NCBI GenBank assembly: GCA_033675265.1
Contig: JAUJYZ010001557.1
Span: forward strand, 1 to 64,000
Origin: Actinostola sp. cb2023
Lineage: Eukaryota > Cnidaria > Anthozoa > Actiniaria > Actinostolidae
Reading direction: 5' to 3'
Length of the DNA stretch: 64,000 bases
Numbering within the stretch: the stretch's first letter is position 1; the number at the start of each line of letters is the position of its first letter. Below, piece by piece: positions 6,241 through 64,000 of this stretch. The position numbers and the translations under genes are program-made. A model generated the notes under the pieces. That model saw nothing but the letters and a program-made list of their open reading frames with translations, was not told where the DNA came from and made no database searches.

Positions 6241-8130
6241 AATGATAGAATGCTATAACAAGTGGTGATACGCAAGCACTTCTACAGCAGTCAAAGGCCT
6301 TGGATAGAATGCTATAACAAGTGGTGATACGCAAGCACTTCTACAGCAGTCAAAGGCCTTGGATAGAATGCTATAACAAGTGGTGATACGCAAGCACTTC
6401 TACAGCAGTCAAAGGCCTTGGATAGAATGCTATAACAAGTGGTGATACGCAAGCACTTCTACAGCAGTCAAAGGCCTTGGATAGAATGCTATAACAAGTG
6501 GTGATACGCAAGCACTTCTACAGCAGTCAAAGGCCTTGGATAGAAGGCTATAACAAGTGGTGATACGCAAGCACTTCTACAGCAGTCAAAGGCCTTGAAT
6601 AGAATGCTATAACAAGTAGTGATACGCAAGCACTTCTACAGCAGTCAAAGGCCTTGGATAGAATGCTATAACAAGTGGTGATACGCAAGGACTTTTGCAG
6701 CAGTCAAAGGCCTTGGATAGAATGCTATAACAAGTGGTGATATGCAAGCACTTCTACAGCAGTCAAAGGCCTTGGATAGAATGCTATAACAAGTGGTGAT
6801 ATGCAAGCACTTCTACAGCAGTCAAAGGCCTTGGATAGAATGCTATAATAAGTGGCGATACGCAAGCACTTCTACAGCAGTCAAAGGCCTTGGATAGAAT
6901 GCTATAACAAGTGGTGATACGCAAGCACTTCTACAGCAGTCAAAGGCCTTGGATAGAATGCTATAACAAGTGGTGATATGCAAGCACTTCTACAGCAGTC
7001 AAAGGCCTTGGATAGAATGCTATAACAAGTGGTGATATGCAAGCACTTCTACAGCAGTCAAAGGCCTTGGATAGAATGCTATAATAAGTGGCGATACGCA
7101 AGCACTTCTACAGCAGTCAAAGGCCTTGGATAGAATGCTATAACAAGTGGTGATACGCAAGCACTTCTACAGCAGTCAAAGGCCTTGGATAGAATGCTAT
7201 AACAAGTGGTGATACGCAAGCACTTCTACAGCAGTCAAAGGCCTTGGATAGAATGCTATAACAAGTGGTGATACGCAAGTACTTCTGCAGCAGTCAAAGG
7301 CCTTGGATAGAATGCTATAATAAGTGGCGATATGCAAGCACTTCTGCAGCAGTCAAAGGCCTTGGATAGAATGCTATAACAAGTGGTGATATGCAAGCAC
7401 TTCTACAGCAGTCAAAGGCCTTGGAAGAATGCTATAACAAGTGGTGATATGCAAGCACTTCTACAGCAGTCAAAGGCCTTGGATAGAATGCTATAATAAG
7501 TGGTGATACGCAAGCACTTCTACAGCAGTCAAAGGCCTTGGATAGAATGCTATAACAAGTGGTGATATGCAAGCACTTCTACAGCAGTCAAAGGCCTTGG
7601 ATAGAATGCTATAACAAGTGGTGATACGCAAGCACTTCTACAGCAGTCAAAGGCCTTGGATAGAATGCTATAACAAGTGGTGATACGCAAGCACTTCTAC
7701 AGCAGTCAAAGGCCTTGGATAGAATGCTATAACAAGTGGTGATACGCAAGCACTTCTGCAGCAGTCAAAGGCCTTGGATAGAATGCTATAATAAGTGGCG
7801 ATGCGCAAGCACTTCTACAGCAGTCAAAGGCCTTGGATAGAATGCTATAACAAGTGGTGATATGCAAGCACTTCTGCAGCAGTCAAAGGCCTTGGATAGA
7901 ATGCTATAACAAGTGGTGATACGCAAGCACTTCTACAGCAGTCAAAGGCCTTGGATAGAATGCTATAACAAGTGGTGATACGCAAGCACTTCTGCAGCAG
8001 TCAAAGGCCTTGGATAGAATGCTATAACAAGTGGTGATACGCAAGCACTTCTACAGCAGTCAAAGGCCTTGGGTAGAATACTATAACAAGTGGCGATGCA
8101 CAAGCACTTCTGCAGCAGTCAAAGGTCTTG
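6241..8130. repeat. 59-bp tandem array built from the end of STK40 coding sequence
   Basis: About 32 copies of a 59-bp unit. On the minus strand each unit reads as the last 49 nt of the STK40 coding sequence (RPLTAVEVLAYHHLL, then TAG) followed by 10 nt, CATTCTATCC. The real terminal codons are the copy at the high-coordinate edge (8081-8130), where the protein reads [15 protein letters not shown]. All other copies lie after the stop, in the presumed 3'UTR. Most array copies carry GTA where the gene has GCA (Val for Ala), so they form a subfamily distinct from the true exon end. Confidence 0.95.
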
Positions 8131-11100
8131 CGTCTTCCGAGATTCTTCTGATAGGTGGCTGACATAATACCTCCTGTGAAATACCAACGAGAGGTTCTTG
8201 TTTAAAGAATTCGTCACTCAATTTGTGGAACTGGAGTTCAAGGTCTGATGGTATTGTAGGGTTTTCTTTGTCTTGTGTCTCAGTATCTTCTGATTCATTC
8301 ATATCAGGCACTATTTGTGGGGATTCTCCATTACATGCCAAGTGATACCTGAAAACAGTAACATACTCACCATAAATACATGTTTGAGGATCAATTATAC
8401 ATGTACATAGATACAAACTCTGTTATTGACAAGGATTACACTTTTACTGATGATGCAGGTGATGATGATGACAGTGGTGATGATGATGATGATGATGATG
8501 ATGATAGCTGGTAGTGATGTTGATGATAGTGGTGGTGGTGATGAAACTGATGATAGTGGTCAAGATTGCATTTGCAGTGGCATCGATAATAATGATGATA
8601 ATGATGATGGTAATGAAGATGATGATAATGATTGTGCTGGAAATGATGATGGCAATTATTATTAGGATCAATAAAGACGGTAGCAGAGGTAATGATGAAG
8701 GTTGTACAATGTACATGTACATGTATGTCAGATAATATTGATGAAAATGAAGATAACAATGATCTGCTAGTCTTATCCATACCAGGAGTTCATGGTATTT
8801 TGTAGGAAGCCAAGTACTTCTGTTGCCGTTAGTCGTTTGTTAGGGTCAAGTGTCAGAAGTAAACGAATAAGATCCTTGGTGTTCTCAGACACAGGACTTT
8901 CCCTAAGATAAACAACAACAAAACAATGTTTACAATTCAATCAGTTACTAGGGGTGGTGAATGGTGATTTTGAGACTATGTTGTGGTGATGATGATGATG
9001 ATGATGGTGATAATGATGATGGTGGCAGTGGGTGATTATGATGGTGGTGATGATGATGATGGTGATAATGATGATGGTGGTGATGATGATGATGGTGATA
9101 ATGATGATGGTGGCAGTGGGTGATTATGATGGTGGTGATGATGATGATGACAATGCCTTATCGGCTTTTATCAGCTTAATAAAGATGATGATGATGATTA
9201 TTATGATGATGATGATGATTATATGATGATGATGGTAATGATGATGATGATGGTGGTGATAATGATGATGGTGGTGGTGATGATGATGATGATGGAAGTT
9301 AGTAGAAGTGATAATGACCCAAACAAGACTATAAGGCTTAATTATTATAACAGTCTATTTAGTGTTTCACATGATTTCATATATACGTACATACCCTGGT
9401 ATGATAAACTCAGCACTTTTGATTTTTCTGAAAAGTTCATGTGGAACACTGTCGTAGAAAGGGAACTGCCCATATAACATTGTGTATAATACAACACCCA
9501 GAGCCCACATATCACTAGCCTTGCCTGAATATGGCGCACCTACAAAAAAATAAAGGTATTGTCAGTCACTTTGAATAATACCAAATTATTCTTATAAATG
9601 TTTATATACTTTTTTTTTGGAAATTGTATTCTTGAGTTTTTCAATTCCCTTTGCCATTCATGTCAATAAACTATTATTATTATTATTAAAAATAAAGGAG
9701 TGGTTGCTCAAATATCCTTTGCCAAAGGATAATAGAATATAAATAATTAAAAAGAAAGAAATGAAATAATAATAAAAATAAGCTTTTTAAATTTATTACA
9801 GAGTAACTTGCTAAAGGGCAGCAACTTTAGTTTAATTTTTGGGCTGCCTCGCTGATAATAATAGATTGCTATAAGTACCACTACTATTAAGGTATCAGGG
9901 TACCCCAAAAAAACTTTCAAACCACCGGTTTTGATTTTTTTTGAGAATCAAATCTAATTGAATATTATCTATCATCTCCAAAAAACAGAATCTAAAAATA
10001 TATTTTTCCTAAAAAGTTAGAATCAAAAACGGATTTTGGTTTCATTTGATGTAAAAAGATGTTGACAAGCAAGCTGTCAACAGTACTCACGCAACAGACT
10101 TTCCACAAAGATTCAGATGCGAAGAAAGTATCCAAAAATCGTAACTGCTCACTCAAAACATCCTTGAATAACAATGCCAAACAACTCACGGTCAAAATGC
10201 TCGTATTTTCCGCCAGCAGTAACTTTGTTTTCCTGCCACGTTGTGTTACGTACTGTAAGGCGATCTTCTTTTGAATGCCATTCATATGTCATCAGGTATT
10301 GGATCACATATTTGTGGTGGATTATGGACACTTGTGTAAACAAAGGCGCCACTTGACTTTAAAACTCTTTTGCCTTTATTTCGGAAACAAAATAGCCATG
10401 AATCAAGCGCACATTTTGAGTTCCGGGTCAAAGGGATTTTATCCGATTTAGCTGAAATTTGGTAGATACTTTATCAAATAAATATTCTTCAAAAAGGTGT
10501 CTCCGAATTTTAATATTTAATTTCCTTCGAAAGTTATAACTTGTTTTGTAAAGTGTTTTCCAGTTTTGCAGAACTCGAAGTTTAGGACCGTATAAAAACG
10601 CAACGGGTTAATTTATCGATAAACGGAGACACCTTTTTTGTAAGCTATATCTCATGAGCTTATAAAGGTATTAGTCGAGGATTTCCGATAAATTGCGGCT
10701 GTATGGGACCTCAGCGATGATAGTGATGTCAAAATCTGAACTTTTTTACCTATTTCAATTATACTGTTTTTGTTCTAAAAACTAATTGTTTTATTGAATT
10801 CTGCATTTATTCAGCTTTCAGAAAATGTATACTTTATAGAGGTTTTAACGGAATGAGTACGCGCTAGAGCGTGTTGCGTGCATGATGGTCGTTTGGGGTA
10901 CCCTGATACCTTAAATACATCTGGACTAACATAAGCCTCGCTGATAATAATAATACATTTTATATAGCGCCACTATCCATAACAATGATCAGAGCACTTA
11001 GAATGCTAATTAAACCTATGAGTACTACTTATGAGTACTATATTGCTATACATTGTACATACCACTAAGTACATCAGGACTAATATAAGCTGGGCTGCCT

Positions 11101-14100
11101 CGCTGATAATAATAGATTGCTATACGTACCACTAAGTACATCAGGACTAATATAAGCTGGGCTGCCTCGCTGATAATAATAGATTGCTATACGTACCACT
11201 AAGTACATCAGGACTAATATAAGCTGGGCTGCCTTGCTGATAATAATAGATTGCTATACGTACCACTAAGTACATCAGGACTAATATAAGCTGGGCTGCC
11301 TCGCTGATAATAATAGATTGCTATACATACCACTAAGTACATCAGGACTAATATAAGCTGGGCTGCCTTGCTGATAATAATAGATTGCTATACATACCAC
11401 TAAGTACATCAGGACTAATATAAGCTGGGCTGCCTCGCTGATAATAATAGATTGCTATACATACCACTAAGTACATCAGGACTAATATAAGCTGGGCTGC
11501 CTTGCTGATAATAATAGATTGCTATACGTACCACTAAGTACATCAGGACTAATATAAGCTGGGCTGCCTCGCTGATAATAATAGATTGCTATACGTACCA
11601 CTAAGTACATCAGGACTAATATAAGCTGGGCTGCCTCGCTGATAATAATAGATTGCTATACATACCACTAAGTACATCAGGACTAATATAAGCTGGGCTG
11701 CCTTGCTGATAATAATAGATTGCTATACATACCACTAAGTACATCAGGACTAATATAAGCTGGGCTGCCTTGCTGATAATAATAGATTGCTATACATACC
11801 ACTAAGTACATCAGGACTAATATAAGCTGGGCTGCCTTGCTGATAATAATAGATTGCTATACATACCACTAAGTACATCAGGACTAATATAAAGCTGGGC
11901 TGCCTTGCTGATAATAATAGATTGCTATACATACCACTAAGTACATCAGGACTAATATAAGCTGGGCTGCCTTGCTGATAATAATAGATTGCTATACATA
12001 CCACTAAGTACATCAGGACTAATATAAGCTGGGCTGCCTCGCTGATAATAATAGATTGCTATACATACCACTAAGTACATCAGGACTAATATAAGCTGGG
12101 CTGCCTCGCTGATAATAATAGATTGCTATACGTATACCACTAAGTACATCAGGACTAATATAAGCTGGGCTGCCTTGCTGATAATAATAGATTGCTATAC
12201 GTACCACTAAGTACATCAGGACTAATATAAGCTGGGCTGCCTCGCTGATAATAATAGATTGCTATACGTACCACTAAGTACATCAGGACTAATATAAGCT
12301 GGGCTGCCTTGCTGATAATAATAGATTGCTATAAGTACCACTAAGTACATCAGGACTAATATAAGCTGGGCTGCCTTGCTGATAATAATAGATTGCTATA
12401 CATACCACTAAGTACATCAGGACTAATATAAGCTGGGCTGCCTTGCTGATAATAATAGATTGCTATAAGTACCACTAAGTACATCAGGACTAATATAAGC
12501 TGGGCTGCCTCGCTGATAATAATAGATTGCTATACATACCACTAAGTACATCAGGACTAATATAAGCTGGGCTGCCTCGCTGATAATAATAGATTGCTAT
12601 AAGTACCACTAAGTACATCAGGACTAATATAAGCTGGGCTGCCTTGCTGATAATAATAGATTGCTATACATACCACTAAGTACATCAGGACTAATATAAG
12701 CTGGGCTGCCTTGCTGATAATAATAGATTGCTATACGTACCACTAAGTACATCAGGACTAATATAAGCTGGGCTGCCTTGCTGATAATAATAGATTGCTA
12801 TACATACCACTAAGTACATCAGGACTAATATAAGCTGGGCTGCCTCGCTGATAATAATAGATTGCTATACGTACCACTAAGTACATCAGGACTAATATAA
12901 GCTGGGCTGCCTCGCTGATAATAATAGATTGCTATACGTACCACTAAGTACATCAGGACTAATATAAGCTGGGCTGCCTTGCTGATAATAATAGATTGCT
13001 ATACATACCACTAAGTACATCAGGACTAATATAAGCTGGGCTGCCTCGCTGATAATAATAGATTGCTATAAGTACCACTAAGTACATCAGGACTAATATA
13101 AGCTGGGCTGCCTCGCTGATAATAATAGATTGCTATAAGTACCACTAAGTACATCAGGACTAATATAAGCTGGGCTGCCTCGCTGATAATAATAGATTGC
13201 TATACATACCACTAAGTACATCAGGACTAATATAAGCTGGGCTGCCTTGCTGATAATAATAGATTGCTATACATACCACTAAGTACATCAGGACTAATAT
13301 AAGCTGGGCTGCCTTGCTGATAATAATAGATTGCTATAAGTACCACTAAGTACATCAGGACTAATATAAGCTGGGCTGCCTTGCTGATAATAATAGATTT
13401 GCTATACATACCACTAAGTACATCAGGACTAATATAAGCTGGGCTGCCTTGCTGATAATAATAGATTGCTATAAGTACCACTAAGTACATCAGGACTAAT
13501 ATAAGCTGGGCTGCCTCGCTGATAATAATAGATTGCTATACATACCACTAAGTACATCAGGACTAATATAAGCTGGGCTGCCTCGCTGATAATAATAGAT
13601 TGCTATAAGTACCACTAAGTACATCAGGACTAATATAAGCTGGGCTGCCTTGCTGATAATAATAGATTGCTATACATACCACTAAGTACATCAGGACTAA
13701 TATAAGCTGGGCTGCCTTGCTGATAATAATAGATTGCTATACGTACCACTAAGTACATCAGGACTAATATAAGCTGGGCTGCCTTGCTGATAATAATAGA
13801 TTGCTATACATACCACTAAGTACATCAGGACTAATATAAGCTGGGCTGCCTCGCTGATAATAATAGATTGCTATACGTACCACTAAGTACATCAGGACTA
13901 ATATAAGCTGGGCTGCCTCGCTGATAATAATAGATTGCTATACGTACCACTAAGTACATCAGGACTAATATAAGCTGGGCTGCCTTGCTGATAATAATAG
14001 ATTGCTATACATACCACTAAGTACATCAGGACTAATATAAGCTGGGCTGCCTCGCTGATAATAATAGATTGCTATAAGTACCACTAAGTACATCAGGACT

Positions 14101-17100
14101 AATATAAGCTGGGCTGCCTTGCTGATAATAATAGATTGCTATACATACCACTAAGTACATCAGGACTAATATAAGCTGGGCTGCCTCGCTGATAATAATA
14201 GATTGCTATACATACCACTAAGTACATCAGGACTAATATAAGCTGGGCTGCCTCGCTGATAATAATAGATTGCTATAAGTACCACTAAGTACATCAGGAC
14301 TAATATAAGCTGGGCTGCCTCGCTGATAATAATAGATTGCTATACATACCACTAAGTACATCAGGACTAATATAAGCTGGGCTGCCTCGCTGATAATAAT
14401 AGATTGCTATACATACCACTAAGTACATCAGGACTAATATAAGCTGGGCTGCCTCGCTGATAATAATAGATTGCTATACATACCACTAAGTACATCAGGA
14501 CTAATATAAGCTGGGCTGCCTCGCTGATAATAATAGATTGCTATACATACCACTAAGTACATCAGGACTAATATAAGCTGGGCTGCCTCGCTGATAATAA
14601 TAGATTGCTATACATACCACTAAGTACATCAGGACTAATATAAGCTGGGCTGCCTCGCTGATAATAATAGATTGCTATACATACCACTAAGTACATCAGG
14701 ACTAATATAAGCTGGGCTGCCTCGCTGATAATAATAGATTGCTATACGTACCACTAAGTACATCAGGACTAATATAAGCTGGGCTGCCTCGCTGATAATA
14801 ATAGATTGCTATACGTACCACTAAGTACATCAGGACTAATATAAGCTGGGCTGCCTCGCTGATAATAATAGATTGCTATACATACCACTAAGTACATCAG
14901 GACTAATATAAGCTGGGCTGCCTTGCTGATAATAATAGATTGCTATAAGTACCACTAAGTACATCAGGACTAATATAAGCTGGGCTGCCTTGCTGATAAT
15001 AATAGATTGCTATACATACCACTAAGTACATCAGGACTAATATAAGCTGGGCTGCCTCGCTGATAATAATAGATTGCTATACATACCACTAAGTACATCA
15101 GGACTAATATAAGCTGGGCTGCCTCGCTGATAATAATAGATTGCTATACATACCACTAAGTACATCAGGACTAATATAAGCTGGGCTGCCTCGCTGATAA
15201 TAATAGATTGCTATACATACCACTAAGTACATCAGGACTAATATAAGCTGGGCTGCCTCGCTGATAATAATAGATTGCTATACGTACCACTAAGTACATC
15301 AGGACTAATATAAGCTGGGCTGCCTTGCTGATAATAATAGATTGCTATACATACCACTAAGTACATCAGGACTAATATAAGCTGGGCTGCCTCGCTGATA
15401 ATAATAGATTGCTATACATACCACTAAGTACATCAGGACTAATATAAGCTGGGCTGCCTCGCTGATAATAATAGATTGCTATACATACCACTAAGTACAT
15501 CAGGACTAATATAAGCTGGGCTGCCTCGCTGATAATAATAGATTGCTATAAGTACCACTAAGTACATCAGGACTAATATAAGCTGGGCTGCCTCGCTGAT
15601 AATAATAGATTGCTATACATACCACTAAGTACATCAGGACTAATATAAGCTGGGCTGCCTCGCTGATAATAATAGCTGCTATAATACCACTAATAGATTG
15701 CGCTGATATATAGATTGCTATACATACCACTAAGTACATCAGGACTAATATAAGCTGGGCTGCCTCGCTGATAATAATAGATTGCTATACATACCACTAA
15801 GTACATCAGGATAATATAAGCTGGGCTGCCTCGCTGCTGATAATAATAGATTGCTATACATACCACTAAGTACATCAGGACTAATATAAGCTGGGCTGCC
15901 TCGCTGATAATAATAGATTGCTATACATACCACTAAGTACATCAGGACTAATATAAGCTGGGCTGCCTCGCTGATAATAATAGATTGCTATACATACCAC
16001 TAAGTACATCAGGACTAATATAAGCTGGGCTGCCTCGCTGATAATAATAGATTGCTATACGTACCACTAAGTACATCAGGACTAATATAAGCTGGGCTGC
16101 CTCGCTGATAATAATAGATTGCTATACATACCACTAAGTACATCAGGACTAATATAAGCTGGGCTGCCTCGCTGATAATAATAGATTGCTATAAGTACCA
16201 CTAAGTACATCAGGACTAATATAAGCTGGGCTGCCTCGCTGATAATAATAGATTGCTATACATACCACTAAGTACATCAGGACTAATATAAGCTGGGCTG
16301 CCTCGCTGATAATAATAGATTGCTATACATACCACTAAGTACATCAGGACTAATATAAGCTGGGCTGCCTCGCTGATAATAATAGATTGCTATACATACC
16401 ACTAAGTACATCAGGACTAATATAAGCTGGGCTGCCTCGCTGATAATAATAGATTGCTATACATACCACTAAGTACATCAGGACTAATATAAGCTGGGCT
16501 GCCTCGCTGATAATAATAGATTGCTATACATACCACTAAGTACATCAGGACTAATATAAGCTGGGCTGCCTCGCTGATAATAATAGATTGCTATACATAC
16601 CACTAAGTACATCAGGACTAATATAAGCTGGGCTGCCTCGCTGATAATAATAGATTGCTATACATACCACTAAGTACATCAGGACTAATATAAGCTGGGC
16701 TGCCTCGCTGATAATAATAGATTGCTATACATACCACTAAGTACATCAGGACTAATATAAGCTGGGCTGCCTCGCTGATAATAATAGATTGCTATACATA
16801 CCACTAAGTACATCAGGACTAATATAAGCTGGGCTGCCTCGCTGATAATAATAGATTGCTATACATACCACTAAGTACATCAGGACTAATATAAGCTGGG
16901 CTGCCTCGCTGATAATAATAGATTGCTATACATACCACTAAGTACATCAGGACTAATATAAGCTGGGCTGCCTCGCTGATAATAATAGATTGCTATACAT
17001 ACCACTAAGTACATCAGGACTAATATAAGCTGGGCTGCCTCGCTGATAATAATAGATTGCTATACATACCACTAAGTACATCAGGACTAATATAAGCTGG

Positions 17101-37850: not shown

Positions 37851-37852
37851 AG

Positions 37853-39716: not shown

Positions 39717-39797
39717 TTTTCACTTGATACACTATACAGAATTCACTAGACTCTGTGAACAATAATACTGCTTACATGTAGAGGTCCTAATGTCATA

Positions 39798-44990: not shown

Positions 44991-45289
44991 TTTGCGGCAA
45001 CAATAGACAGTCTATTCACAGAATTCCACTAGGTTGTTTTATATTTTGTCCTCCAAAACAATCGACGTTCAGATGGCCGTCGTTAAATATAAGGGCACTG
45101 TCTTAATATAGGGCCTGGCATCCTGAGATGTGTTCAATTCTGCTAGATTGCACGGTGGATATAGTAGGGCCGAACTTTTCATCCTTTAAAACCACTCTAA
45201 AACGATTCAATGACGCAAACATAAGCGCAACCACAAGGAAATGGACAAGTTTTGATACTTCGTCGGGTCCGTCATTCACATGACACAAG

Positions 45290-45862: not shown

Positions 45863-46297
45863 TTCTTGTGCTTGCATCGCTAGCGAAAACTAGGCTTCTT
45901 TAAACTTTAATCTTTAATCAGTTACTTCTAAAACAGCATAACTATACTAGAAGTTTAAATATTAATAAAAATAAAATTATGTGATGTTAATGTATACAGA
46001 AAAATATAAATACTAATAGCAGTACGTAAAATACGGTACTCAATTTGAAATAGGTATGCACTAGGGCAAAAAAGAACACTCGAGAACTGACTCAGGCAAA
46101 AATGAACACCCGGTACGCCCACGACATAGCATTCCAATGTGGGTGCATCATTTAAAACCGGAGACACCAGACTGGATGCATAGAATAGAAGCAGAAGGCT
46201 TCGTGCTATGAAGAGAATGAGGGGAAAGTTCAGCAAATTTCTAAATTTCACCGGCACTGATGTCTCGGCTGGCCCCATGATGACTCAACGATACGAT

Positions 46298-46374
46298 CAT
46301 GCTCGAGAATCCATCGGTGCTCTTCGGCGTGGGCTCGGATGAAACATAAGAGCACCGATGGATTCTCGAGCATG
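46298..46374. mobile_element. 77-bp hairpin element with 9-bp target duplication
   Basis: Palindrome starting CATGCTCGAGAATCCATCGG with its complement at the right end. Flanked by CGATACGAT at 46289-46297 and 46375-46383. Outer stem as in 42956-43029, inner stem unrelated. Confidence 0.85.
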
Positions 46375-46572
46375 CGATACGATGAGCGGTGAACTCCTCT
46401 TTTCTAGCCTCCAGGTCAACGATACGTCCTATTTACAAGTAAATAACAAATAACCAAACTAACACCGAGTTTGAAACCAGTTTTATACCGGTTTGAAACC
46501 AGTTTGAAACCAGTTTAACACCATCAACTTTTCATTTTTATTTCATCGTGTTTTCTAATTGAAGTGTGTTTG

Positions 46573-46648
46573 AACATTCGTTAGTCTGCGAATACAACCG
46601 CTGTGGTGAGCGCCAAAAAGCGGCTGTATTCGCAGGCTAAACATTCGT
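46573..46648. mobile_element. Hairpin MITE with TTAGYCTGCGAATACA termini
   Basis: TTAGTCTGCGAATACAACCG and CGGCTGTATTCGCAGGCTAA are inverted ends around a short loop. Direct repeats ACATTCG flank the element (7-8-bp target duplication). Confidence 0.8.
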
Positions 46649-46654
46649 AAACCC

Positions 46655-47055
46655 CCGGGGGGGGACTCTCCATAACAGTAGACGGGGGTGATCGTCCTAT
46701 CCCTTAGGGTATAAAATTCTACCATCTGCTATCCCTTAGGGGTGTTCAAAGAGTCTGCTATCCCTTAGGGATCATGCTATCCAAAAAAAGTCGGACTTGA
46801 AGACTGGATGACAGCACTATCAACAGTCACCAGAAAAGAGATGCGCTCGATGGCGGTGTCTTAAGGACCGTAATAAAATTCAGGAAAACTGAAAATGTGT
46901 TTGTTTTATTGCTATCTCTTAGGGTTAAAAATTTCTTCGACCACACCCAATGTGCTATCTCTTAGGGGTAAATTTGCTGTTGACCACACCCAATGTGCTA
47001 TCCCTTAGGGTTAAAATTGATTTTGCCGACGATCACCCCCGTCTACTGTTATGGA

Positions 47056-47091
<36 letters not shown>

Positions 47092-47092
47092 G
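46655..47092. mobile_element. Foldback element with poly-G/C ends and internal GCTATCCCTTAGGG repeats
   Basis: Arms GGACTCTCCATAACAGTAGA plus CGGGGGTGATCGTC are mirrored at 47024-47068. The interior has at least six copies of GCTATCYCTTAGGG, plus a duplicated CGACCACACCCAATGT-type spacer. The right end runs into about 36 consecutive C, the left end into 8 G. Non-coding. Confidence 0.8.
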
Positions 47093-52400: not shown

Positions 52401-55400
52401 TAGCGTTCTAGGGGCGTTGATAAGCAGGCAATACTGTGACGGGGCCCAGACTAATTTGTAAGGGATTGTGCTTGGGTTTTAGGGGGATGTGGGTAGAGGC
52501 GGGAGGGAAAGAGGGGAGGGTGAGGGACAAAAGGCTGAACCTTTTTGATATTAACCGGGAAAGAATGGTAACTAGTTACCATGGCAATCTCGGTCGCGTC
52601 CGTCTGAGGGTTCACTAGTACTGAGTCTCATGTTCTTCATTCTGTAGGTGGATGGTTTTGTGTCAATAAAAAGGCATGTAATGATAGAGCGAATTCCAGC
52701 ATGCGCACCTTGATGACGTCATCAAAATGGCGGAAAACAAAACGAGGTGAGGATTGTAGGGGACTGGGGCACAGTAATCTATATATATGCTGAACGACAA
52801 GAAGAAGGGTAAGTCCTTCATGGTCCTTCATATATGGTACATTATGGTGGTCCATAGTCATTATCTAATTAAAGGTTTGACTTTAATTATCATAAGAGTC
52901 GTTTTCGTACGAGTGGGAAGTAGTTACCGGTTCGTGCCGTGCGGTGACCGTGCCGTGTCCAAGCATTCTGATTGGTTGAACAATGATTTTGCGCCCTGTG
53001 ATTGGTTAAATAGATGTCCGTGCCGTAGGTTTCCCAGTCATACGACTGAAACGACTCTAATCGCTAACGAAGGCCTAAACTAATGGTTTATCTTCAAGGT
53101 ACTGGAATGCTGTCTTCAAATCCCAAAGAGAACCCAAGTTGGTGGAACGCCAACCACGTGTAAGTACCGACAAGACACCAAGAGTGTGTTCCCGAATAGG
53201 AATAGACCGAATGCAACAATGGCGTCCAATTTCAATTGCCATTGTTCTGGACTGACTAGCCTCTCATACAAGTGTTTCCACATGAACACGAGGCTAGTCA
53301 GTCCAGAACAACGGCAATTGAAATTGGACGCCATTATTGCATTCGTTCTATAAGTGACATAAACAGGATTAACCGTTCGATTCAATCACTATTCCTATTA
53401 GCCATTTTGGAGTTGATGTTTGCGGGGCATTGTGGGACTGTTTTAGGGGGACGCTCTATCTCAGTTCAATACAGCGACAAGTTTGAATAGTGATGTACCA
53501 AAGTTTGAATAGTGATGTACCAAAAAGAATTTGAATAGTTTGATAGTGTACCAAAGTTTGAATAGTGATGTACCAAAGTTTGAATAGTGATGTACCAAAG
53601 TTTGAATAGTGATGTACCAAAGTTTGAATAGTGATGTACCAAAGTTTGAATAGTGATGTACCAAAGTTTGAATAGTGATGTACCAAGTGATGTACCAAAG
53701 TTTGAATAGTGATGTACCAAAGTTTGAATAGTGATGTACCAAAGTTTGAATAGTGATGTACCAAAGTTTTTGAATAGTGATGTACCAAAGTTTGAATAGT
53801 GATGTACCAAAGTTTGAATAGTGATGTACCAAAGTTTGAATAGTGATGTACCAAAGTTTGAATAGTGATGTACCAAAGTTTGAATAGTGATGTACCAAAG
53901 TTTGAATAGTGATGTACCAAAGTTTGAATAGTGATGTACCAAAGTTTGAATAGTGATGTACCAAAGTTTGAATAGTGATGTACCAAAGTTTGAATAGTGA
54001 TGTACCAAAGTTTGAATAGTGATGTACCAAAGTTTGAATAGTGATGTACCAAAGTTTGAATAGTGATGTACCAAAGTTTGAATAGTGATGTACCAAAGTT
54101 TGAATAGTGATGTACCAAAGTTTGAATAGTGATGTACCAAAGTTTGAATAGTGATGTACCAAAGTTTGAATAGTGATGTACCAAAGTTTGAATAGTGATG
54201 TACCAAAGTTTGAATAGTGATGTACCAAAGTTTGAATAGTGATGTACCAAAGTTTGAATAGTGATGTACCAAAGTTTGAATAGTGATGTACCAAAGTTTG
54301 AATAGTGATGTACCAAAGTTTGAATAGTGATGTACCAAAGTTTGAATAGTGATGTACCAAAGTTTGAATAGTGATGTACCAAAGTTTGAAATAGTGATGT
54401 ACCAAAGTTTGAATAGTGATGTACCAAAGTTTGAATAGTGATGTACCAAAGTTTGAATAGTGATGTACCAAAGTTTGAATAGTGATGTACCAAAGTTTGA
54501 ATAGTGATGTACCAAAGTTTGAATAGTGATGTACCAAAGTTTGAATAGTGATGTACCAAAGTTTGAATAGTGATGTACCAAGTTTGAATAGTGATGTACC
54601 AAAGTTTGAATAGTGATGTACCAAAGTTTGAATAGTGATGTACCAAAGTTTGAATAGTGATGTACCAAAGTTTGAATAGTGATGTACCAAAAGTAAGTGA
54701 GTTTGGCTCACAATAATTATGTTTCACAGTCGTTTATTTTATACAGTAAATAGACAGCAATGGCGTCCCCTAGCACAGACCAATCAGTTTGAATAGTGAT
54801 GTACCAAAAGTAAGTGAGTTTGGCTCACAATAATTATGTTTCACAGTCGTTTATTTTATACAGTAAATAGACAACAATGGCGTCTCTAAAACACTCCCAC
54901 AATTCCCTGCCAATGTTTTCCAGTCGTTTCACCATGTTTTACAGTAAATAGACAGCAATGGCGTCTCTAAAACACTCGCCCACAATTCCCTGCCAATGTT
55001 TTCCAGTCGTTTCATCGTGTTTTATACAGTAAATAGACAGCAATGGCGTCTCTAAAACACTCCCACAATTCCCCGCCAATGTTTTCCAGTCGTTTCATCG
55101 TGTTTTACAGTAAATAGACAACAATGGCGTCTCTAAAACACTCCCACAATTCCCTGCCAATGTTTTCCAGTCGTTTCATCGTGTTTTATACAGTAAATAG
55201 ACAGCAATGGCGTCTCTAAAACACTCCCACAATTCCCTGCCAATGTTTTCCAGTCGTTTCACCATGTTTTACAGTAAATAGACAGCAATGGCGTCTCTAA
55301 AACACTCGCCCACAATTCCCTGCCAATGTTTTCCAGTCGTTTCATCGTGTTTTACAGTAAATAGACAGCAATGGCGTCCCCTAAAACACTCCCACAATTC

Positions 55401-58400
55401 CCTGCCAATGTTTTCCAGTCGTTTCATCGTGTTTTATACAGTAAATAGACAGCAATGGCGTCTCTAAAACACTCCCACAATTCCCTGCCAATGTTTTCCA
55501 GTCGTTTCATCGTGTTTTATACAGTAAATAGACAACAATGGCGTCCCCTAAAACACTCCCACAATTCCCTGCCAATGTTTTCCAGTCGTTTCATCGTGTG
55601 TTTTACAGTAAATAGACAACAATGGCGTCTCTAAAACACTCGCACAATTCCCTGCCAATGTTTTCCAGTCGTTTTTCATCGTGTACAGTAAATTCAATCT
55701 CTAAAACACTCCCACAATTCCCTGCCAATGTTTTCCAGTCGTTTCATCGTGTTTTTACAGTAAATAGACAACAATGGCGTCTAAAACACTCCCACAATTC
55801 CCTGCCAATGTTTTCCAGTCGTTTTCATCGTGTTTTATACAGTAAATAGACAACAATGGCGGCGTCTCTAAACACTCCCACAATTCCCTGCCAATGTTTT
55901 CCAGTCGTTTCATCGTGTTTTATACAGTAAATAGACAGCAATGGCGTCTCTAAAACACTCCCACAATTCCCTGCCAATGTTTTCCAGTCGTTTCATCGTG
56001 TTTTACAGTAAATAGACAGCAATGGCGTCTCTAAAACACTCGCCCACAATTCCCTGCCAATGTTTTCCAGTCGTTTCATCGTGTTTTACAGTAAATAGAC
56101 AGCAATGGCGTCCCCTAAAACACTCCCACAATTCCCTGCCAATGTTTTCCAGTCGTTTCATCGTGTTTTATACAGTAAATAGACAGCAATGGCGTCTCTA
56201 AAACACTCCCACAATTCCCTGCCAATGTTTTCCAGTCGTTTCATCGTGTTTTATACAGTAAATAGACAGCAATGGCGTCTCTAAAACACTCGCCCACAAT
56301 TCCCCGCCAATGTTTTCCAGTCGTTTCACCATGTTTTACAGTAAATAGACAACAATGGCGTCTCTAAAACACTCCCACAATTCCCTGCCAATGTTTTCCA
56401 GTCGTTTCATCGTGTTTTACAGTAAATAGACAGCAATGGCGTCTCTAAAACACTCCCACAATTCCCTGCCAATGTTTTTTCAGTCGTTTCATCGTGTTTT
56501 ATACAGTAAAAATAGACAGCAATGGCGTCTCTAAAACACTCGCCCACAATTCCCCGCCAATGTTTTCCAGTCGTTTCACCATGTTTTACAGTAAATAGAC
56601 AACAATGGCGTCTCTAAAACACTCCCACAATTCCCTGCCAATGTTTTCCAGTCGTTTCATCGTGTTTTATACAGTAAATAGACAGCAATGGCGTCTCTAA
56701 AACACTCCCACAATTCCCTGCCAATGTTTTCCAGTCGTTTCATCGTGTTTTATACAGTAAATAGACAACAATGGCGTCTCTAAAACACTCCCACAATTCC
56801 CTGCCAATGTTTTCCAGTCGTTTCATCGTGTTTTACAGTAAATAGACAGCAATGGCGTCTCTAAAACACTCCCACAATTCCCTGCCAATGTTTTCCAGTC
56901 GTTTCATCGTGTTTTACAGTAAATAGACAACAATGGCGTCTCTAAAACACTCCCACAATTCCCTGCCAATGTTTTCCAGTCGTTTCATCGTGTTTTATAC
57001 AGTAAATAGACAGCAATGGCGTCTCTAAAACACTCCCACAATTCCCTGCCAATGTTTTCCAGTCGTTTCATCGTGTTTTTATACAGTAAATAGACAGCAA
57101 TGGCGTCCCCTAAAACACTCGCCCACAATTCCCTGCCAATGTTTTCCAGTCGTTTCATCGTGTTTTATACAGTAAATAGACAGCAATGGCGTCTCTAAAA
57201 CACTCCCACAATTCCCTGCCAATGTTTTCCAGTCGTTTCATCGTGTTTTATACAGTAAATAGACAGCAATGGCGTCCCCTAAAACACTCGCCCACAATTC
57301 CCCGCCAATGTTTTCCAGTCGTTTCATCGTGTTTTTACAGTAAATAGACAACAATGGCGTCTCTAAAACACTCCCACAATTCCCTGCCAATGTTTTCCAG
57401 TCGTTTCATCGTGTTTTACAGTAAATAGACAACAATGGCGTCTCTAAAACACTCCCACAATTCCCTGCCAATGTTTTCCAGTCGTTTCACCATGTTTTAT
57501 ACAGTAAATAGACAACAATGGCGTCTCTAAAACACACCCCACAATTCCCTGCCAATGTTTTCCAGTCGTTTCATCGTGTTTTACAGTAAATAGACAACAA
57601 TGGCGTCTCTAAAACACTCCCACAATTCCCTGCCAATGTTTTCCAGTCGTTTCATCGTGTTTTACAGTAAATAGACAGCAATGGCGTCTCTAAAACACTC
57701 GCCCACAATTCCCTGCCAATGTTTTCCAGTCGTTTCATCGTGTTTTTTACAGTAAATAGACAGCAATGGCGTCTCTAAAACACTCCCACAATTCCCTGCC
57801 AATGTTTTCCAGTCGTTTCATCGTGTTTTACAGTAAATAGACAGCAATGGCGTCTCTAAAACACTCGCCCACAATTCCCTGCCAATGTTTTCCAGTCGTT
57901 TCATCGTGTTTTATACAGTAAATAGACAGCAATGGCGTCTCTAAAACACTCCCACAATTCCCTGCCAATGTTTTCCAGTCGTTTCATCGTGTTTTATACA
58001 GTAAATAGACAACAATGGCGTCTCTAAAACACTCCCACAATTCCCTGCCAATGTTTTCCAGTCGTTTCATCGTGTTTTACAGTAAATAGACAGCAATGGC
58101 GTCTCTAAAACACTCCCACAATTCCCTGCCAATGTTTTCCAGTCGTTTCATCGTGTTTTACAGTAAATAGACAACAATGGCGTCTCTAAAACACTCCCAC
58201 AATTCCCTGCCAATGTTTTCCAGTCGTTTCATCGTGTTTTATACAGTAAATAGACAGCAATGGCGTCTCTAAAACACTCCCACAATTCCCTGCCAATGTT
58301 TTCCAGTCGTTTCATCGTGTTTTATACAGTAAATAGACAGCAATGGCGTCCCCTAAAACACTCGCCCACAATTCCCTGCCAATGTTTTCCAGTCGTTTCA

Positions 58401-61400
58401 TCGTGTTTTATACAGTAAATAGACAGCAATGGCGTCTCTAAAACACTCCCACAATTCCCTGCCAATGTTTTCCAGTCGTTTCATCGTGTTTTATACAGTA
58501 AATAGACAGCAATGGCGTCCCCTAAAACACTCGCCCACAATTCCCCGCCAATGTTTTCCAGTCGTTTCATCGTGTTTTACAGTAAATAGACAACAATGGC
58601 GTCTCTAAAACACTCCCACAATTCCCTGCCAATGTTTTCCAGTCGTTTCATCGTGTTTTACAGTAAATAGACAACAATGGCGTCTCTAAAACACTCCCAC
58701 AATTCCCTGCCAATGTTTTCCAGTCGTTTCATCGTGTTTTATACAGTAAATAGACAACAATGGCGTCTCTAAAACACTCCCACAATTCCCTGCCAATGTT
58801 TTCCAGTCGTTTCACCATGTTTTACAGTAAATAGACAACAATGGCGTCCCCTAAAACACTCCCACAATTCCCTGCCAATGTTTTCCAGTCGTTTCATCGT
58901 GTTTTATACAGTAAATAGACAACAATGGCGTCTCTAAAACACTCCCACAATTCCCTGCCAATGTTTTCCAGTCGTTTCATCGTGTTTTATACAGTAAATA
59001 GACAACAATGGCGTCTCTAAAACACTCCCACAATTCCCTGCCAATGTTTTCCAGTCGTTTCATCGTGTTTTACAGTAAATAGACAGCAATGGCGTCCCCT
59101 AAAACACTCCCACAATTCCCTGCCAATGTTTTCCAGTCGTTTCATCGTGTTTTATACAGTAAATAGACAACAATGGCGTCTCTAAAACACTCCCACAATT
59201 CCCTGCCAATGTTTTCCAGTCGTTTCATCGTGTTTTACAGTAAATAGACAGCAATGGCGTCTCTAAAACACTCGCCCACAATTCCCTGCCAATGTTTTCC
59301 AGTCGTTTCATCGTGTTTTATACAGTAAATAGACAGCAATGGCGTCTCTAAAACACTCCCACAATTCCCTGCCAATGTTTTCCAGTCGTTTCATCGTGTT
59401 TTACAGTAAATAGACAGCAATGGCGTCCCCTAAAACACTCGCCCACAATTCCCTGCCAATGTTTTCCAGTCGTTTCATCGTGTTTTATACAGTAAATAGA
59501 CAGCAATGGCGTCTCTAAAACACTCCCACAATTCCCTGCCAATGTTTTCCAGTCGTTTCATCGTGTTTTATACAGTAAATAGACAGCAATGGCGTCCCCT
59601 AGCACAGACCAATCAGCACATCAATGCATCAACTCCGAAAGGGCTAATTTACGCGTGAAGGTTTTGTTGGTGAAGGTTTTGTTGCATCTTGCATTCCAAG
59701 CCCGAAATGCACTATGGGCGATGTGAATGGAGTCAGCGAAAGGTCACAACAATTATGGACTCTGGGAATTTTCCCAAACTTTGTCTTCGCAATATGGAGC
59801 AGGCATATTTTTTTCTGTATGTGCATGCTGACATTATTTATCCATGATCCACAATACATTTCGGGCTTGGTATGCAAGATGCAACATGCGATGCAACAAA
59901 ACCTTCACCAACCTTTTTTGAAATAGCTGTATAGCTATTACGGAATAATCCAGAAGATATTCTTATAGGACCGCGCACCCTAAAGCCTGGACCTCACTAG
60001 TGACATAAGCGCAAGCAACATACGCAGATTCAGAACACCATTTGATGCAAGACAAGTAATGAGCAATGTTGCTTGTGCTTATGTCACTAGTGAGGACCAG
60101 GCTTTAATGAGCAATGCATTACTGAGTCTGCGTATGTTGCTTGATGTGTTTATGTTGTAAGTGAGGACCAGGGCTAAACTAGGCAAGGCCTTCATGTAGC
60201 TGCACAAATTGTCCTGGCTATTGTGCGTTAAATGAGGGGTTTTGTAAATTAATTGTGTCTTTGTTTTTGTTTCAGTTTGATACCTTATTGCTCTAGTGAC
60301 GCGTGGAGCGGAAATGCCACAAGTCGTGAGACAGGAGGTAAGGGCACAGGCAGCCCAACCATTGCTTTTAAGGCTACTAAATAGTCAAATAAAATGATAT
60401 CTGCGTCTTTTTTGATGGGTTTCCTGTGGTAGAGCGCGCGTGCGCAATACGTATTATGTCGAGCTCCCTGTGCTGAGTAACGTCCTACCACAGGAAACCC
60501 ATAAAAAAACAAACAAATATAATTACTCGGGCTCCCCGTGGGAGGCCCGAGTCTAAAAATGCAAACTGTTCTTCGTCATGTTTGGTCGTCAAATCTGCAA
60601 TGGGCCACTATTGCGCATGCGCTCTGTGCCGCTTTCATGATGCATCGCAGGCTCAGATCTACGAATAGTTGCCGATTGACTTTCCGAAAACTCGTCGGTC
60701 GAGTATGTTAATCACGGGGCCATGCTAATCTTTTCTGTTTCGTTCCAATTTTAGCATGCAGTACGAACTGTATGTTTAGAAAAGGAGCCCGAGTTAACTC
60801 CACTTGTCGAGTTTTATTGAATTATTTAGTAGTCTCAGAAGCAATGGTTGGGCTGCCTGTGGTAGGGATGAATCCTTTGCAAGCGTGTATGAGTATAAAG
60901 AAAGCAGAGAAAATTGTGAGAATGAAAGGGAGCAAAAAGGAAGTAAGGTAGATGGAGAGTATAGAGAAAAAGAAAGAAGAATTCGAAAGACAAGTAAAAC
61001 AAGGCGAGCAGTGAAAGAAAGAATGACTTGAATTCATAAACTATTTACACCAGAACTCATTTTGATTCCGCAGAAAGGTTTTCTTTCCTCGGTTCGCGCA
61101 TCATCGAGAAAGTCATCGAAGACTTGTTAGCTAAGGGTCTGTACCACGCGGAACACTTACTGTTGGCCGGTAGCAGGTAAGTGTAGCCCGTAACAATCTA
61201 CAGCTTGATTTTCTATCACACGCTCTGGGTTTCTGAGGATGAAGTTAAAATATGATCAAATGATGGGCATTTTTACTAATAATGATTATGTACCCGTTCG
61301 TTTTAGTGCCGGTGCCATAGGGGTACTCCTAAATGTAGACTAATAATGATTATGTACCCGTTTGTTTTAGTGCCGGTGCCATAGGGGTACTCCTAAATGT

Positions 61401-64000
61401 AGACTAATAATGATTATGTACCCGTTTGTTTTAGTGCCGGTGCCATAGGGGTACTCCTAAATGTAGACTAATAATGATTATGTACCCGTTTGTTTTAGTG
61501 CCGGTGCCATAGGGGTACTCCTAAATGTAGACTAATAATGATTATGTACCCGTTTGTTTTAGTGCCGGTGCCATAGGGGTACTCCTAAATGTAGACTAAT
61601 AATGATTATGTACCCGTTCGTTTTAGTGCCGGTGCCATAGGGGTACTCCTAAATGTAGACCGCGTGTCCTTCAAACTACGAAGTCTTGGCTACAACATCA
61701 ATGTCCGTGGTCTTGTAGACTCAGGCTGGTATCTTGGTAATATATCCAAGCAAAAAGGCTGCGGTAAAGGATCGTGTGGACCTGAAAAAACCATTAAGGA
61801 AGGAATGAGGTAGGGTACGATTACAGTACGGGTACGGTATGGTTACGGTACGGTTAACGTTTTTATTTTTACCACTCGAAAATAAAATTCATATCTTCGC
61901 GCCGCCGTGTAGTATCGTCTATGTAATTTACGCAATTCAGCCTACTGGCTGACTTGAGAAGTAATCCTAATGCTTTCTCCGCCATGTAATATTGAAATAA
62001 ACTATCTATCTCCAGTCTTACGCATATGTTAATTTATCGATTTGTCCTTGATTACAGATACTGGAGAGGAGTAGTCCCTAAAGCATGCGCGGTGAATCAA
62101 TCCAAGTCCGAGTGGAACTGTTACTTTGGGAACGTTGTTTATCCCACATTGAAATGTGAGTACGACTCAGACAGAATCGGGCCAAAACAACATACAATAT
62201 ATAATATATAAAGTGTGTACAGTCAAACCTCACCAACTGACCTGCTTAATAGAGGTGACCGCTTAACAGAGGGCCGCTTAATAGAGGTTTGACTGTATTC
62301 ACTTTTATGTGCTACCTTCTTGAAATAGTCATCATTATCATCATTAGACATCTCTGTCTCTCGTTCATCCTCTGGTCTTCCTGTCAGTCTATTAACCGGG
62401 AGAGACTGGGGAAAGTATGAAGAGAATAACCTTAGTCTCCCCGGCCTCGTAAAGGACAGGGATACCATGGAAGGCTGCGTGCATTGCTGGTTTGTACGTG
62501 ACGTCATGGCGGCCATGTTGGATCCCGATATCAAAGCATTCCTAGCTATTCCTCATTAACTTCTCTTGTTTGTACCATACGTTGTACCAACGTGGCCGCT
62601 GCGTCTTTGTACTTTAAATCTCCAGGGATTTATTGTAACCCAGTAATAGTATTTTATGATTCCCACTCTTTTGGTTACAGCGCCCATCTTTGTATTTCAA
62701 TGGCTGTACGACGAGACGCAGCTTGCACTGAATGGTTCTGGGCGACCGAAGTCTTTGCAGGGAGTCACTCAAGAACAAGTGTCTTTTATACTCGACTTAA
62801 GCAAAGATCTCAGACATTCACTACGCCATGACAACGTCCAGTAAGTATGGTCAGCGGTGATTCTAGACTATTTTTGGGGTATAAATTTATGATACACTAA
62901 AGTAGTTTACCCCTCCTCCTCCCATTTGGACCACCCCTCCCCCTATTACGGTTTGATTATTTTACGAAAGCGAGTCATGTACATAAATCGTACTAAGAGA
63001 CCATTGTGGTCTCTTCAACGTACATTTTGAAATTTTAATGCGACGTTCTCAAATGCTGCCAGCCAAAGTTTGAAGGTCAAAATAATTTACTCGATATAAG
63101 AAATACCGATTATGACGTTATAGTATAGGTATAGAGCAGATTTCGAATGACTGTGAAAAACTTACGGCACGGACGTGCCGTGACCGTGATGATTTAGGAT
63201 TTCGAATGAATCCGTGCCGTGACCGTGCCGTGACCGTGCCGTGCCGTGACCGTGCCGCGTGCGTCGTGGTTTTGCACAGTCATACGAAATCTGCTCTAAC
63301 TAGATAAACATAGGAGAAGGGTAGCAGTAGATCGTGCTGTTTTTGGTGTGCGCGAGTCCGTCGAGAATTCGAATGTGCACCCAACTTTGAGAAAATGTGG
63401 GACCTCTCTGAGCGACCACCTTTACAAATTAACCGACCACTTTCGAGGGGTTCGACTGTATCTCAGACATCTTGTAAGCGAACACCTCATGTAAGCGACC
63501 ACCTTTACTTGTCAACAAGGGTGGTCGCTTACGAGAGGTTCGACTGTATCTCAGACATCTTGTAAGCGAACACCTCGTGTAAGCGACCACCTTTACTTGT
63601 CAACAAGGGTGGTCGCTTACGAGAGGTTCGACTGTATCTTTTTCATCCAAGTTCACACGGTTGTTGGTTTTTAATTTCAGTTCTGTCTTCGCTGCTTCGT
63701 GCCTATATCACACAATTCTGACAAATACTGACTGGTTAAAGACTACAATTTACGGCTACACGTTGGATGACGCGCTGAAGTGTTGGATGCACTCAAGCGG
63801 CCATAACAGAGGTCTGAGTCGACACAAGAACAGAATACACCGAGGTGCTCCATGTCGAATGCATCTACTGGAGAAGTGTCCTTACCCTATGTGTAACCCG
63901 ACTTGTCCTAGCCCAAGGGACCCCTACACGGGTCAACCGTACACATCCACGAACCCCCGTCCAGGGGTGCCTATAGACGATCGTGCGGTAGGCCAAGGAT
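49476..64000 (+). CDS. NOTUM: NOTUM, secreted palmitoleoyl-protein carboxylesterase (Wnt deacylase), partial
   Basis: Exons 49476-49478 (ATG only), 49557-49777, 50402-50454, 52648-52746, 53099-53159, 60276-60337, 61074-61176, 61627-61809, 62058-62155, 62681-62840 and 63681 onward join in phase; 454 residues are visible and the 3' end is beyond the window. NOTUM removes the palmitoleate from Wnt proteins outside the cell. The N-terminus (MFLSQSLITVVVVFM) is a signal peptide. YLEGGWFC (90-97), the nucleophile elbow GSSAG (199-203, Ser201), Asp305 in LYDETQL and His358 in SCLYHTI are the expected catalytic elements. Conserved cysteines are present (CPYPMCNPTCP). The Ser201 codon is split AG/T by intron 7, whose 3' end is amplified six times. 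Intron 5 (7.1 kb) is filled with satellites. Identity is secure. Confidence 0.96.
50570..50885. repeat. Imperfect 30-33-bp tandem array
   Basis: About ten diverged copies of TTGAATGGCTTTTTTACTACG followed by AGATCAACA or AGATTCGAACGC, in NOTUM intron 3. Confidence 0.8.
51866..52379. mobile_element. 514-bp foldback element with TTAAGGTG ends
   Basis: Arms of about 200 bases: TTAAGGTGGCTCCGTCGAAA on the left, the complement ending GGAGTCACCTTAA on the right, with GATATCGGAGCTACAGTGGA mirrored near the loop. TTAA lies at both ends, as for the 1-kb element at 9887. The right arm lacks about 40 bases present in the left. NOTUM intron 3. Confidence 0.85.
52893..53061. mobile_element. MITE with AGAGTCGTTTTCGTA termini
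   Basis: AAGAGTCGTTTTCGTACGAG at the left is mirrored by TACGACTGAAACGACTCT at the right. Interior has GTGCCGTGCGGTGACC and the two related words TTCTGATTGGTTGAA and CTGTGATTGGTTAAA. It ends 38 bases before NOTUM exon 5. Confidence 0.75.
53190..53352. mobile_element. Foldback element in NOTUM intron 5
   Basis: GACCGAATGCAACAATGGCG, then CAATTTCAATTGCC and TGGACTGACTAGCCTC are mirrored at the right (GGACGCCATTATTGCATTCG). Arms of about 65 bases differ at only a few positions, so it is young or being corrected. Confidence 0.85.
53466..54692. repeat. 22-bp satellite, about 55 copies
   Basis: Very uniform GTTTGAATAGTGATGTACCAAA repeats with a few indel variants at the low-coordinate end (near 53520, 53690, 53770). 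Long open frames on the minus strand arise because three 22-bp units make 66 bases without a stop. NOTUM intron 5. Confidence 0.97.
54693..54860. repeat. Duplicated bridge between the 22-bp and 82-bp arrays
   Basis: A segment of about 105 bases (GTAAGTGAGTTTGGCTCACA through GCGTC) occurs twice, with one 22-bp unit between. The first copy ends in CCCCTAGCACAGACCAATCA, which also closes the 82-bp array at 59593. The bridge thus preserves the ancestral order of the two satellites. Confidence 0.85.
54855..59600. repeat. 81-83-bp satellite, about 58 copies
   Basis: Unit contains AATGGCGTCTCTAAAACACT, CCTGCCAATGTTTTCCAGTC and GTAAATAGACAGC. Copies differ by TTTTATACAG/TTTTACAG, CTCCCAC/CTCGCCCAC, GCGTCTC/GCGTCCC, TCATCG/TCACCAT and GACAGC/GACAAC, forming repeated combinations that indicate multi-unit duplications. 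NOTUM intron 5; not derived from a NOTUM exon. Confidence 0.97.
59655..59915. mobile_element. Foldback element with GGTGAAGGTTTTGTTGCAT ends
   Basis: GGTGAAGGTTTTGTTGCATC and TTGCATTCCAAGCCCGAAAT at the left are mirrored by ATTTCGGGCTTGGTATGCAA and CAACAAAACCTTCACC at the right. The right arm has an extra ACATGCGATGC. About 260 bases. Confidence 0.8.
59985..60178. mobile_element. Nested foldback with ACTAGTGACATAAGCGCAAGC ends
   Basis: TAGTGACATAAGCGCAAGCA is mirrored at 60067-60098 (TGCTTGTGCTTATGTCACTA), and a second diverged mirror follows to GTGAGGACCAGGGC. ACATACGCAGA also appears inverted. NOTUM intron 5. Confidence 0.65.
60413..60510. mobile_element. Hairpin with ATGGGTTTCCTGTGGTAG stem
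   Basis: ATGGGTTTCCTGTGGTAG and CTACCACAGGAAACCCAT, 18 of 18 paired apart from small offsets, around a GC-rich 55-base loop. Probable hairpin MITE inside the larger inverted repeat. Confidence 0.65.
60527..60795. mobile_element. Element with terminal hairpin ACTCGGGC...GCCCGAGT
   Basis: Starts ATAATTACTCGGGCTCCCCG; the first 28 bases form a hairpin with GGGAGGCCCGAGT. It ends GGAGCCCGAGTT, complementary to the start. CGCATGCGCT and ATCGCAGGCTCAGA match the element at 30983-31355. Carries the U6-like segment near its right end. Confidence 0.6.
60716..60756 (-). pseudogene. U6 snRNA-derived fragment
   Basis: On the minus strand TGCTAAAATTGGAACGAAAC followed by AGAAAAGATTAGCATGGCCCC matches the central region of U6 snRNA across about 41 bases with three or four changes. 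The ACAGAGA splicing box is altered to ACAGAAA. The flanking U6 5' stem and 3' end are absent, so it is a fragment captured in a mobile element, not a functional gene. Confidence 0.75.
61276..61661. repeat. 64-bp tandem array built from a NOTUM splice acceptor and exon 8 start
   Basis: Six copies, with acceptor AG/TGCC junctions placing exon starts at 61307, 61371, 61435, 61499, 61563 and 61627. Each unit is 30 nt of intron end (TAATAATGATTATGTACCCG then TTYGTTTTAG) plus the first 34 nt of exon 8 (completing Ser201, then AGAIGVLLNVD). Only the last copy continues into the full exon. In all others GTAGAC is followed by TAA, an in-frame stop. Confidence 0.96.
62218..62298. mobile_element. CAGTCAAACCTC MITE, TA-flanked
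   Basis: TACAGTCAAACCTC and GAGGTTTGACTGTA invert around an 80-bp body containing three CTTAATAGAGG-type words. TA at both ends suggests a Tc1/mariner derivative. NOTUM intron 9. Confidence 0.7.
63130..63300. mobile_element. MITE with TAGAGCAGATTTCGWATGACTGTG termini
   Basis: AGAGCAGATTTCGAATGACT is mirrored by AGTCATACGAAATCTGCTCT. The interior is a tandem of GTGCCGTGACC. NOTUM intron 10. Confidence 0.75.
63395..63640. repeat. Tandemly duplicated CGACTGTA/GTAAGCGACCACC repeat
   Basis: A unit of about 96 bases (CTCAGACATCTTGTAAGCGA through GAGAGGTTCGACTGTAT) occurs twice after a partial copy. Each carries an inverted GTAAGCGACCACC/GGTGGTCGCTTAC pair. Related to the element at 40160-40354. 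It ends 41 bases before NOTUM exon 11. Confidence 0.8.

Follow-up and report, generated by a model that had tools for sequence, protein, structure and literature searches.

Tandem arrays across coding exon edges in an anthozoan genome share the layout of amphioxus 'mirages'

Tandem repeats that run across exon-intron boundaries in amphioxus have been named 'mirages'; the excerpted text of PMC3087553 describes them for Adh3 and the globins, cites Adh3 as the origin of the term and suggests that regular splicing is undisturbed, and excerpts of PMC3902484 add PGBD5 and mention Adh and troponin C. Throughout the cases covered by these excerpts (Adh3, BflGb6/BflGb9, PGBD5 and troponin C), a minisatellite-like unit spans the boundary, 5' and 3' boundaries both occur, the authentic boundary is retained beside the copies, and many extra copies bear AG or GT. 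Regular mRNA accompanies the same structures for Adh3 and the globins, according to the same two sources. Tandem duplication has also been tied to intron gain (the Rogers model), through a duplication across an intron-exon boundary, as excerpts of PMC4974935 report for potato RdRp, or of an AGGT exonic segment.

We examined a window (the whole 64,000-nucleotide stretch of DNA analysed) in which an earlier note had recognised four tandem arrays on coding-exon boundaries. TRF placed all four within a few bases of the positions reported there. Spliced gene models were then rebuilt from sequence with introns set as GT..AG; no splice site was set at three junctions, namely 49477-49479 (NOTUM start exon), 63682 (where NOTUM exon 11 begins) and 36816 (where the last SPATS1 exon ends). 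The arrays and the exons that they touch are as follows, a slash marking the exon edge:

31622-32254 and 31486-31538, minus strand: STK40 exons 1-2; the ATG starts at 32254
30786-30901, minus strand: STK40 exon 3; its final 45 nt belong to the exon-proximal array copy; donor G/GTATGT
11056-30830 (also by TRF), minus strand: 67-bp array of ~294 units that repeat the STK40 exon 3 donor (5' splice site)
9395-9539 and 8783-8902, minus strand: STK40 exons 4-5, downstream of the 21-kb array-bearing intron
8081-8348, minus strand: last coding exon of STK40, with the authentic stop at 8081
6241-8130 (6244-8130 by TRF), minus strand: 59-bp array of 32 full units, each repeating the STK40 C-terminus with its TAG stop
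34841-34958, plus strand: SPATS1-like exon (VYCQRNGLPEIALGDKSYQVPEYSRNFHKHGSTLPTVSFG), donor GG/GTAGGT
34924-35534 (also by TRF), plus strand: 47-bp array of 13 units that repeat the SPATS1-like exon's donor
61275-61660 (also by TRF), plus strand: 64-bp array, 6 units, replicating a NOTUM acceptor
61627-61809, plus strand: NOTUM exon, acceptor TTTTAG/TGCC within the last array copy

STK40 thus hosts two arrays, and the SPATS1-like gene and NOTUM one each. In all four, the unit combines coding sequence from the exon edge (34-50 nt) with neighbouring non-coding DNA (9-30 nt), a layout that the earlier note had recognised: 45 coding and 22 intronic nt at the STK40 donor (67 bp), 49-50 coding nt and 9-10 nt of 3' UTR at the STK40 stop codon (59 bp), 35 coding and 12 intronic nt at the SPATS1-like donor (47 bp), and 30 intronic and 34 coding nt at the NOTUM acceptor (64 bp). 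Coding sequence within the arrays amounts to 45, 50, 35 and 34 nt in the same order. Gene models and reading frames placed the authentic edge at the exon-proximal copy in every case (4/4 window arrays).

STK40 spans 32254 to 8081 (minus strand), with six exons in a single open frame of 444 codons plus stop. Its closest solved structure is PDB 5l2q, serine/threonine-protein kinase 40 (475 bits), and among the 120 best matches listed, protein identity was 74% with Nematostella, 69-73% with stony corals and 60% with amphioxus. Amphioxus, the host that the mirage reports would suggest, is rejected by these identities in favour of an anemone- or coral-like anthozoan. Within the large array of STK40 we counted 259 places with an acceptor-like TTATTATCAG and, 40-46 nt further on, GTATGT or GTACGT; the 21-kb intron therefore contains hundreds of potential mini-exons. 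Stray, diverged partial copies of the 67-bp unit lie past the distal end of the array (9840-9895 and 10900-10960).

The remaining genes of the window were identified by profile or structure. PF15160 (SPATS1) matches a gene at 32.9-36.8 kb and PF00850 (histone deacetylase) one at 39.8-44.6 kb, which we take to be HDAC8-like; our models of both genes are partial. Upstream of the HDAC gene, a 57-bp array (45291-45854) has open frames on both strands and a period that is a multiple of 3. NOTUM, on the plus strand, matches PDB 4uyz (302 bits) and is open through exons 2-10 of an 11-exon model whose start exon and exon 11 start are approximate. The NOTUM intron carrying the 64-bp array splits the GSSAG motif. 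The region of this array was reported at one place genome-wide, with no second haplotype copy in the assembly, which fits local birth. Two adjacent large arrays (22 bp and 83 bp, ~6 kb together, 53479-59596) occupy the NOTUM intron preceding the exon at 60276 and touch no modelled exon. At 63440-63639 lies an 88-bp repeat (..GTAAGCGACCACC..GGGTGGTCGCTTACGAGAGGTTCGACTGTA) from a dispersed family with at least 184 matches in the genome, itself often tandem with periods of 88-105 bp.

When one or three extra copies were read as coding, each of the three intronic window arrays produced a premature stop, in agreement with the earlier note: the STK40 frame ends after 283 of 444 codons, the SPATS1 frame after 169 codons of a 230-codon partial model, and NOTUM stops after residue 211, directly behind a repeated LLNVD. 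That note had also pointed out that none of the periods (67, 59, 47 and 64) is a multiple of 3; this is correct but weak as evidence, because chance alone gives (2/3)^4 = 0.20.

An independent sample was drawn from seven 10-kb regions (L029-L034 and L035) picked for dense myosin-head exon matches rather than for arrays; they are a subset of the places in the genome with myosin matches. Exons were placed with myosin homologues and tblastn, giving 68 exons, 136 edges and 19 arrays, most exon ends being the ends of tblastn or HMM matches, unrefined to a splice site. The sample excludes arrays with a period below 20 or above 300 or a score below 90, tblastn matches below 24 bits, and matches (some scoring as high as 36 bits) that we judged to be chance from their strand, order or low complexity. 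In L032, 10 of the 11 tblastn matches above 30 bits were best with Actinia tenebrosa myosin (76-100% identity), and the remaining one (30 bits) lies within a simple repeat.

One array in this sample spans an exon edge:

L034 8769-9897 (G000:C888:554769-555897): 95-bp myosin array, 11.9 copies, acceptor side

Its unit reads ..TACTGCAATAG/GAGTCGTTAGGGTCC.. with 58-59 coding nt, and the last copy is joined to the exon ESLGSLMTTLGQSHPFFVRCIKPNHSK. This is a new, independent example of the same layout in another gene and on another contig, so that recurrence in unrelated genes, claimed earlier for the three window genes, now extends to a fourth. A TCTCC-type array in L035 was considered as an edge array and not counted, since it ends ~70-90 bp before the acceptor; the exon there was entered ~60 bp too long on the array side in the sample count and leaves the array untouched. 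A Myosin_head search relaxed to E=10 missed the known 95-bp myosin array, so that approach is insensitive for edge arrays. On one contig (G000:C361), matching myosin exons occur on both strands, at 10189-18362 (minus) and 44604-53053 (plus), reflecting either an inverted duplication or a misjoin.

All five arrays are minisatellites in the usual sense of head-to-tail units of ~10-100 bp at high identity: the units measure 47-95 bp, and TRF put the match at 96-99% in the myosin array and three of the window arrays, while the 67-bp array, which TRF gave as two segments, had 90% and 97%. Three of the four window arrays and the myosin array have the unit that defines a mirage, an exon edge plus adjoining intron, and in these 4/4 intronic arrays (3 window, 1 myosin) the authentic splice site is contiguous with the exon body. 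The fourth window array (59 bp, STK40) spans the CDS/3' UTR border rather than an exon-intron boundary. The likeness to amphioxus mirages is one of layout in the genomic sequence. Unlike the amphioxus cases, the host is anthozoan-like rather than a cephalochordate, one array sits on a stop codon/3' UTR edge, and one reaches ~294 copies (19.8 kb). Compared with intron gain by tandem duplication, the duplication across a boundary is shared with the potato case, whereas here no new intron is evident, the edge in the gene models remaining at the exon-proximal copy. Human introns reportedly arose from tandem arrays within genes (Zhuo et al. 2007, by title); the present arrays differ in extending existing introns or a 3' UTR.

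The earlier note's statement that no description of such arrays as a class was known does not hold, given the excerpts of PMC3087553 and PMC3902484. The class is already described, and its presence in an anthozoan is new as far as we found, literature searches, some of them aimed at cnidarians, having shown no report of a cnidarian mirage. New here are the host lineage, the stop-codon member, the ~294-donor array and the independent myosin example.

We consider it likely that these arrays are mirages in the following sense: ordinary minisatellites born anywhere, some of them across coding exon edges by chance, and then filtered by selection. A local tandem duplication would begin with a segment that happens to span a coding exon edge, and the array would grow and be homogenised by slippage or unequal exchange. 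Duplication across an edge (c, coding part; i, intronic part) would give exon-c-i-c-i-intron, in which the first c alone is joined to the exon body and its site could yield normal mRNA; such a layout places no constraint on the period. Duplications of this kind may survive since the exon body always keeps one adjoining copy whose splice site or stop codon is intact, while those wholly inside an exon would be retained chiefly at periods divisible by 3, other periods breaking the frame. The earlier note had taken the position of the true edge at the outermost copy as a clue to mechanism; the rule follows instead from geometry, because any edge duplication ends with precisely one copy attached to the exon body. 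The note's proposal that the arrays may be tolerated through the exon-proximal site is plausible. We infer neutrality, continued use of the exon-proximal site in mRNA, and growth by slippage or exchange.

An alternative is that amplification is directed at exon edges, with splice junctions (through paused polymerase, R-loops or nascent-RNA-templated repair) preferentially seeding tandem duplications. To set the arrays against chance, we collapsed each window array to one unit, leaving 33,277 bases with 63 CDS edges and 12 arrays, and placed the 12 units randomly in 5,000 Monte Carlo trials that disallowed placements wholly inside coding sequence. Four of the 12 arrays lay on CDS edges vs 1.06 expected, and at least four did so in 1.6% of trials (P=0.016), which favours an edge-directed process but is not a fair test, because the window had been flagged for looking striking. 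The count of 12 omits simple or trinucleotide-like and short arrays, including 35626-36262 (114 bp) and 54669-54884 (117 bp), both of which the density filter kept, giving 14 window arrays there. In the myosin sample, one edge-spanning array was found among 19 arrays (1/136 edges), against 1.82 expected, and pooling six of the myosin regions with the window gave 5 edge arrays vs 2.74 expected (P=0.13). Window and seven-region sample differed with Fisher P values of 0.06 by arrays and 0.04 by edges, an unsurprising difference for a flagged window. The number of edge arrays expected from minisatellite density is thus about the number seen in the independent sample. A moderate (two- to three-fold) enrichment at exon edges is compatible with so small a sample (68 exons, 19 arrays).

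Other observations bear on the same alternative. The amphioxus reports likewise concern boundary repeats, although in the excerpted text the cases are presented gene by gene and not counted against chance. Two further arrays abut likely donors in one gene (L024, G000:C1368; presumably KIAA1549-like), at 2967-3224 and 4229-4835. They start ~5 bp into the intron behind donors that we read by eye as GCAAAT/GTATGT and CCAATG/GTGAGT; they were not counted as edge-spanning and may hint at a softer edge preference. Against direction to splice junctions stand the window array on the stop codon of a terminal exon and the geometric origin of the outermost-copy rule. Of the shared process proposed in the earlier note, local tandem amplification across edges therefore stands, while a process aimed specially at exon edges is not supported (myosin 1/19 vs 1.82 expected; pooled P=0.13). 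We regard edge-directed amplification as unlikely; on present evidence, chance and selection suffice to explain the arrays.

Minisatellites are abundant in this genome (424,152,321 bases searched, in 1,594 contigs). Twenty loci (L009-L028; 199,770 bases) held 56 arrays with periods of 30-300, covering 25.5 kb or 12.8%; the loci are non-random, six being the rest of the window's contig and 14 lying on contigs with the 88-bp repeat, and the first overlaps the window by 4 kb and includes two window arrays. A Pfam scan of open frames across array ends in these loci found no further coding-edge array besides NOTUM, which recurs in L009; the scan has low power and was excluded from the enrichment estimate. 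Of 182 frames left by the low-complexity filter, 180 were submitted, the two omitted being further frames of the NOTUM control array. Two of the 180 matched PAE: one is the NOTUM positive control (E=0.0011), and the other is most likely the last NOTUM exon, starting outside the 88-bp array. Single matches to three other families (E 0.007-0.008) look like chance. The ordinary minisatellites of the genome thus share the period range of the edge arrays and differ in that, NOTUM apart, no coding edge was found in them by this low-powered search. Two in-frame, apparently coding arrays occur on the window's contig (L011 6598-7172, 84 bp; L012 7080-7197, 42 bp), both with multiple-of-3 periods (frames read by eye), as our preferred reading would predict for duplications inside exons; they were not counted as edge-spanning, and they seemingly belong to two related gene copies ~10 kb apart, so are not independent.

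We also compared units within each array. Distinct units numbered 24 of 294 (67 bp), 15 of 32 (59 bp), 4 of 13 (47 bp), 2 of 6 (64 bp) and 4 of 12 (myosin 95 bp), consistent with recent expansion or homogenisation. In the same order, 55/67, 44/59, 44/47, 63/64 and 93/95 sites were invariant. In the stop-codon array the exon-side copy departs from the consensus at 7 of 59 sites; in the other four arrays it does so at 0-1 sites.

Variant units also bear on whether consensus or collapse errors in assembly made or inflated the arrays, which we think very improbable. In the amphioxus draft, the assembly of one globin mirage was aberrant (excerpts of PMC3087553), the 20-kb array here is extreme, and the myosin matches in two orientations on C361 could be a misjoin. 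Yet there are four unit families on one contig and a fifth on another, each with variant units, the array flanks are continuous with open exons, and the lancelet PGBD5 tandem repeats were upheld by re-examined and new reads, as excerpts of PMC3902484 state. It is equally improbable that the extra donors, acceptors or stops have a selected function, acting as decoys or supplying poison exons that tune expression: the 259 potential mini-exons of the STK40 array and the retention of the signal in all scored copies (293/293 GT at 67 bp, 32/32 TAG at 59 bp, 13/13 GT at 47 bp, 6/6 AG at 64 bp and 12/12 AG in myosin) would fit such a role, but retained splice dinucleotides or stops are no evidence of selection because most array sites are invariant anyway.

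A broader version of the edge-directed idea, that exon edges are true hot spots of minisatellite birth in both amphioxus and anthozoans through a transcription- or splicing-coupled mechanism, seems to us a little less likely still; were it true, mirages would be convergent and genome-wide in some animals, and would constantly supply new introns and decoy splice sites. The chance calculation itself carries a warning: in genomes so rich in minisatellites, repeats that coincide strikingly with exon edges should come as no surprise. A phenomenon that we found described only in lancelets is now carried into a second animal lineage, along with an exceptionally large natural construct, a 21-kb intron in which a conserved gene carries a single 5' splice site in ~294 tandem copies. 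Arrays like these offer natural tests of two things: the spliceosome's choice between sites that are identical, and the route by which tandem duplication would create introns.
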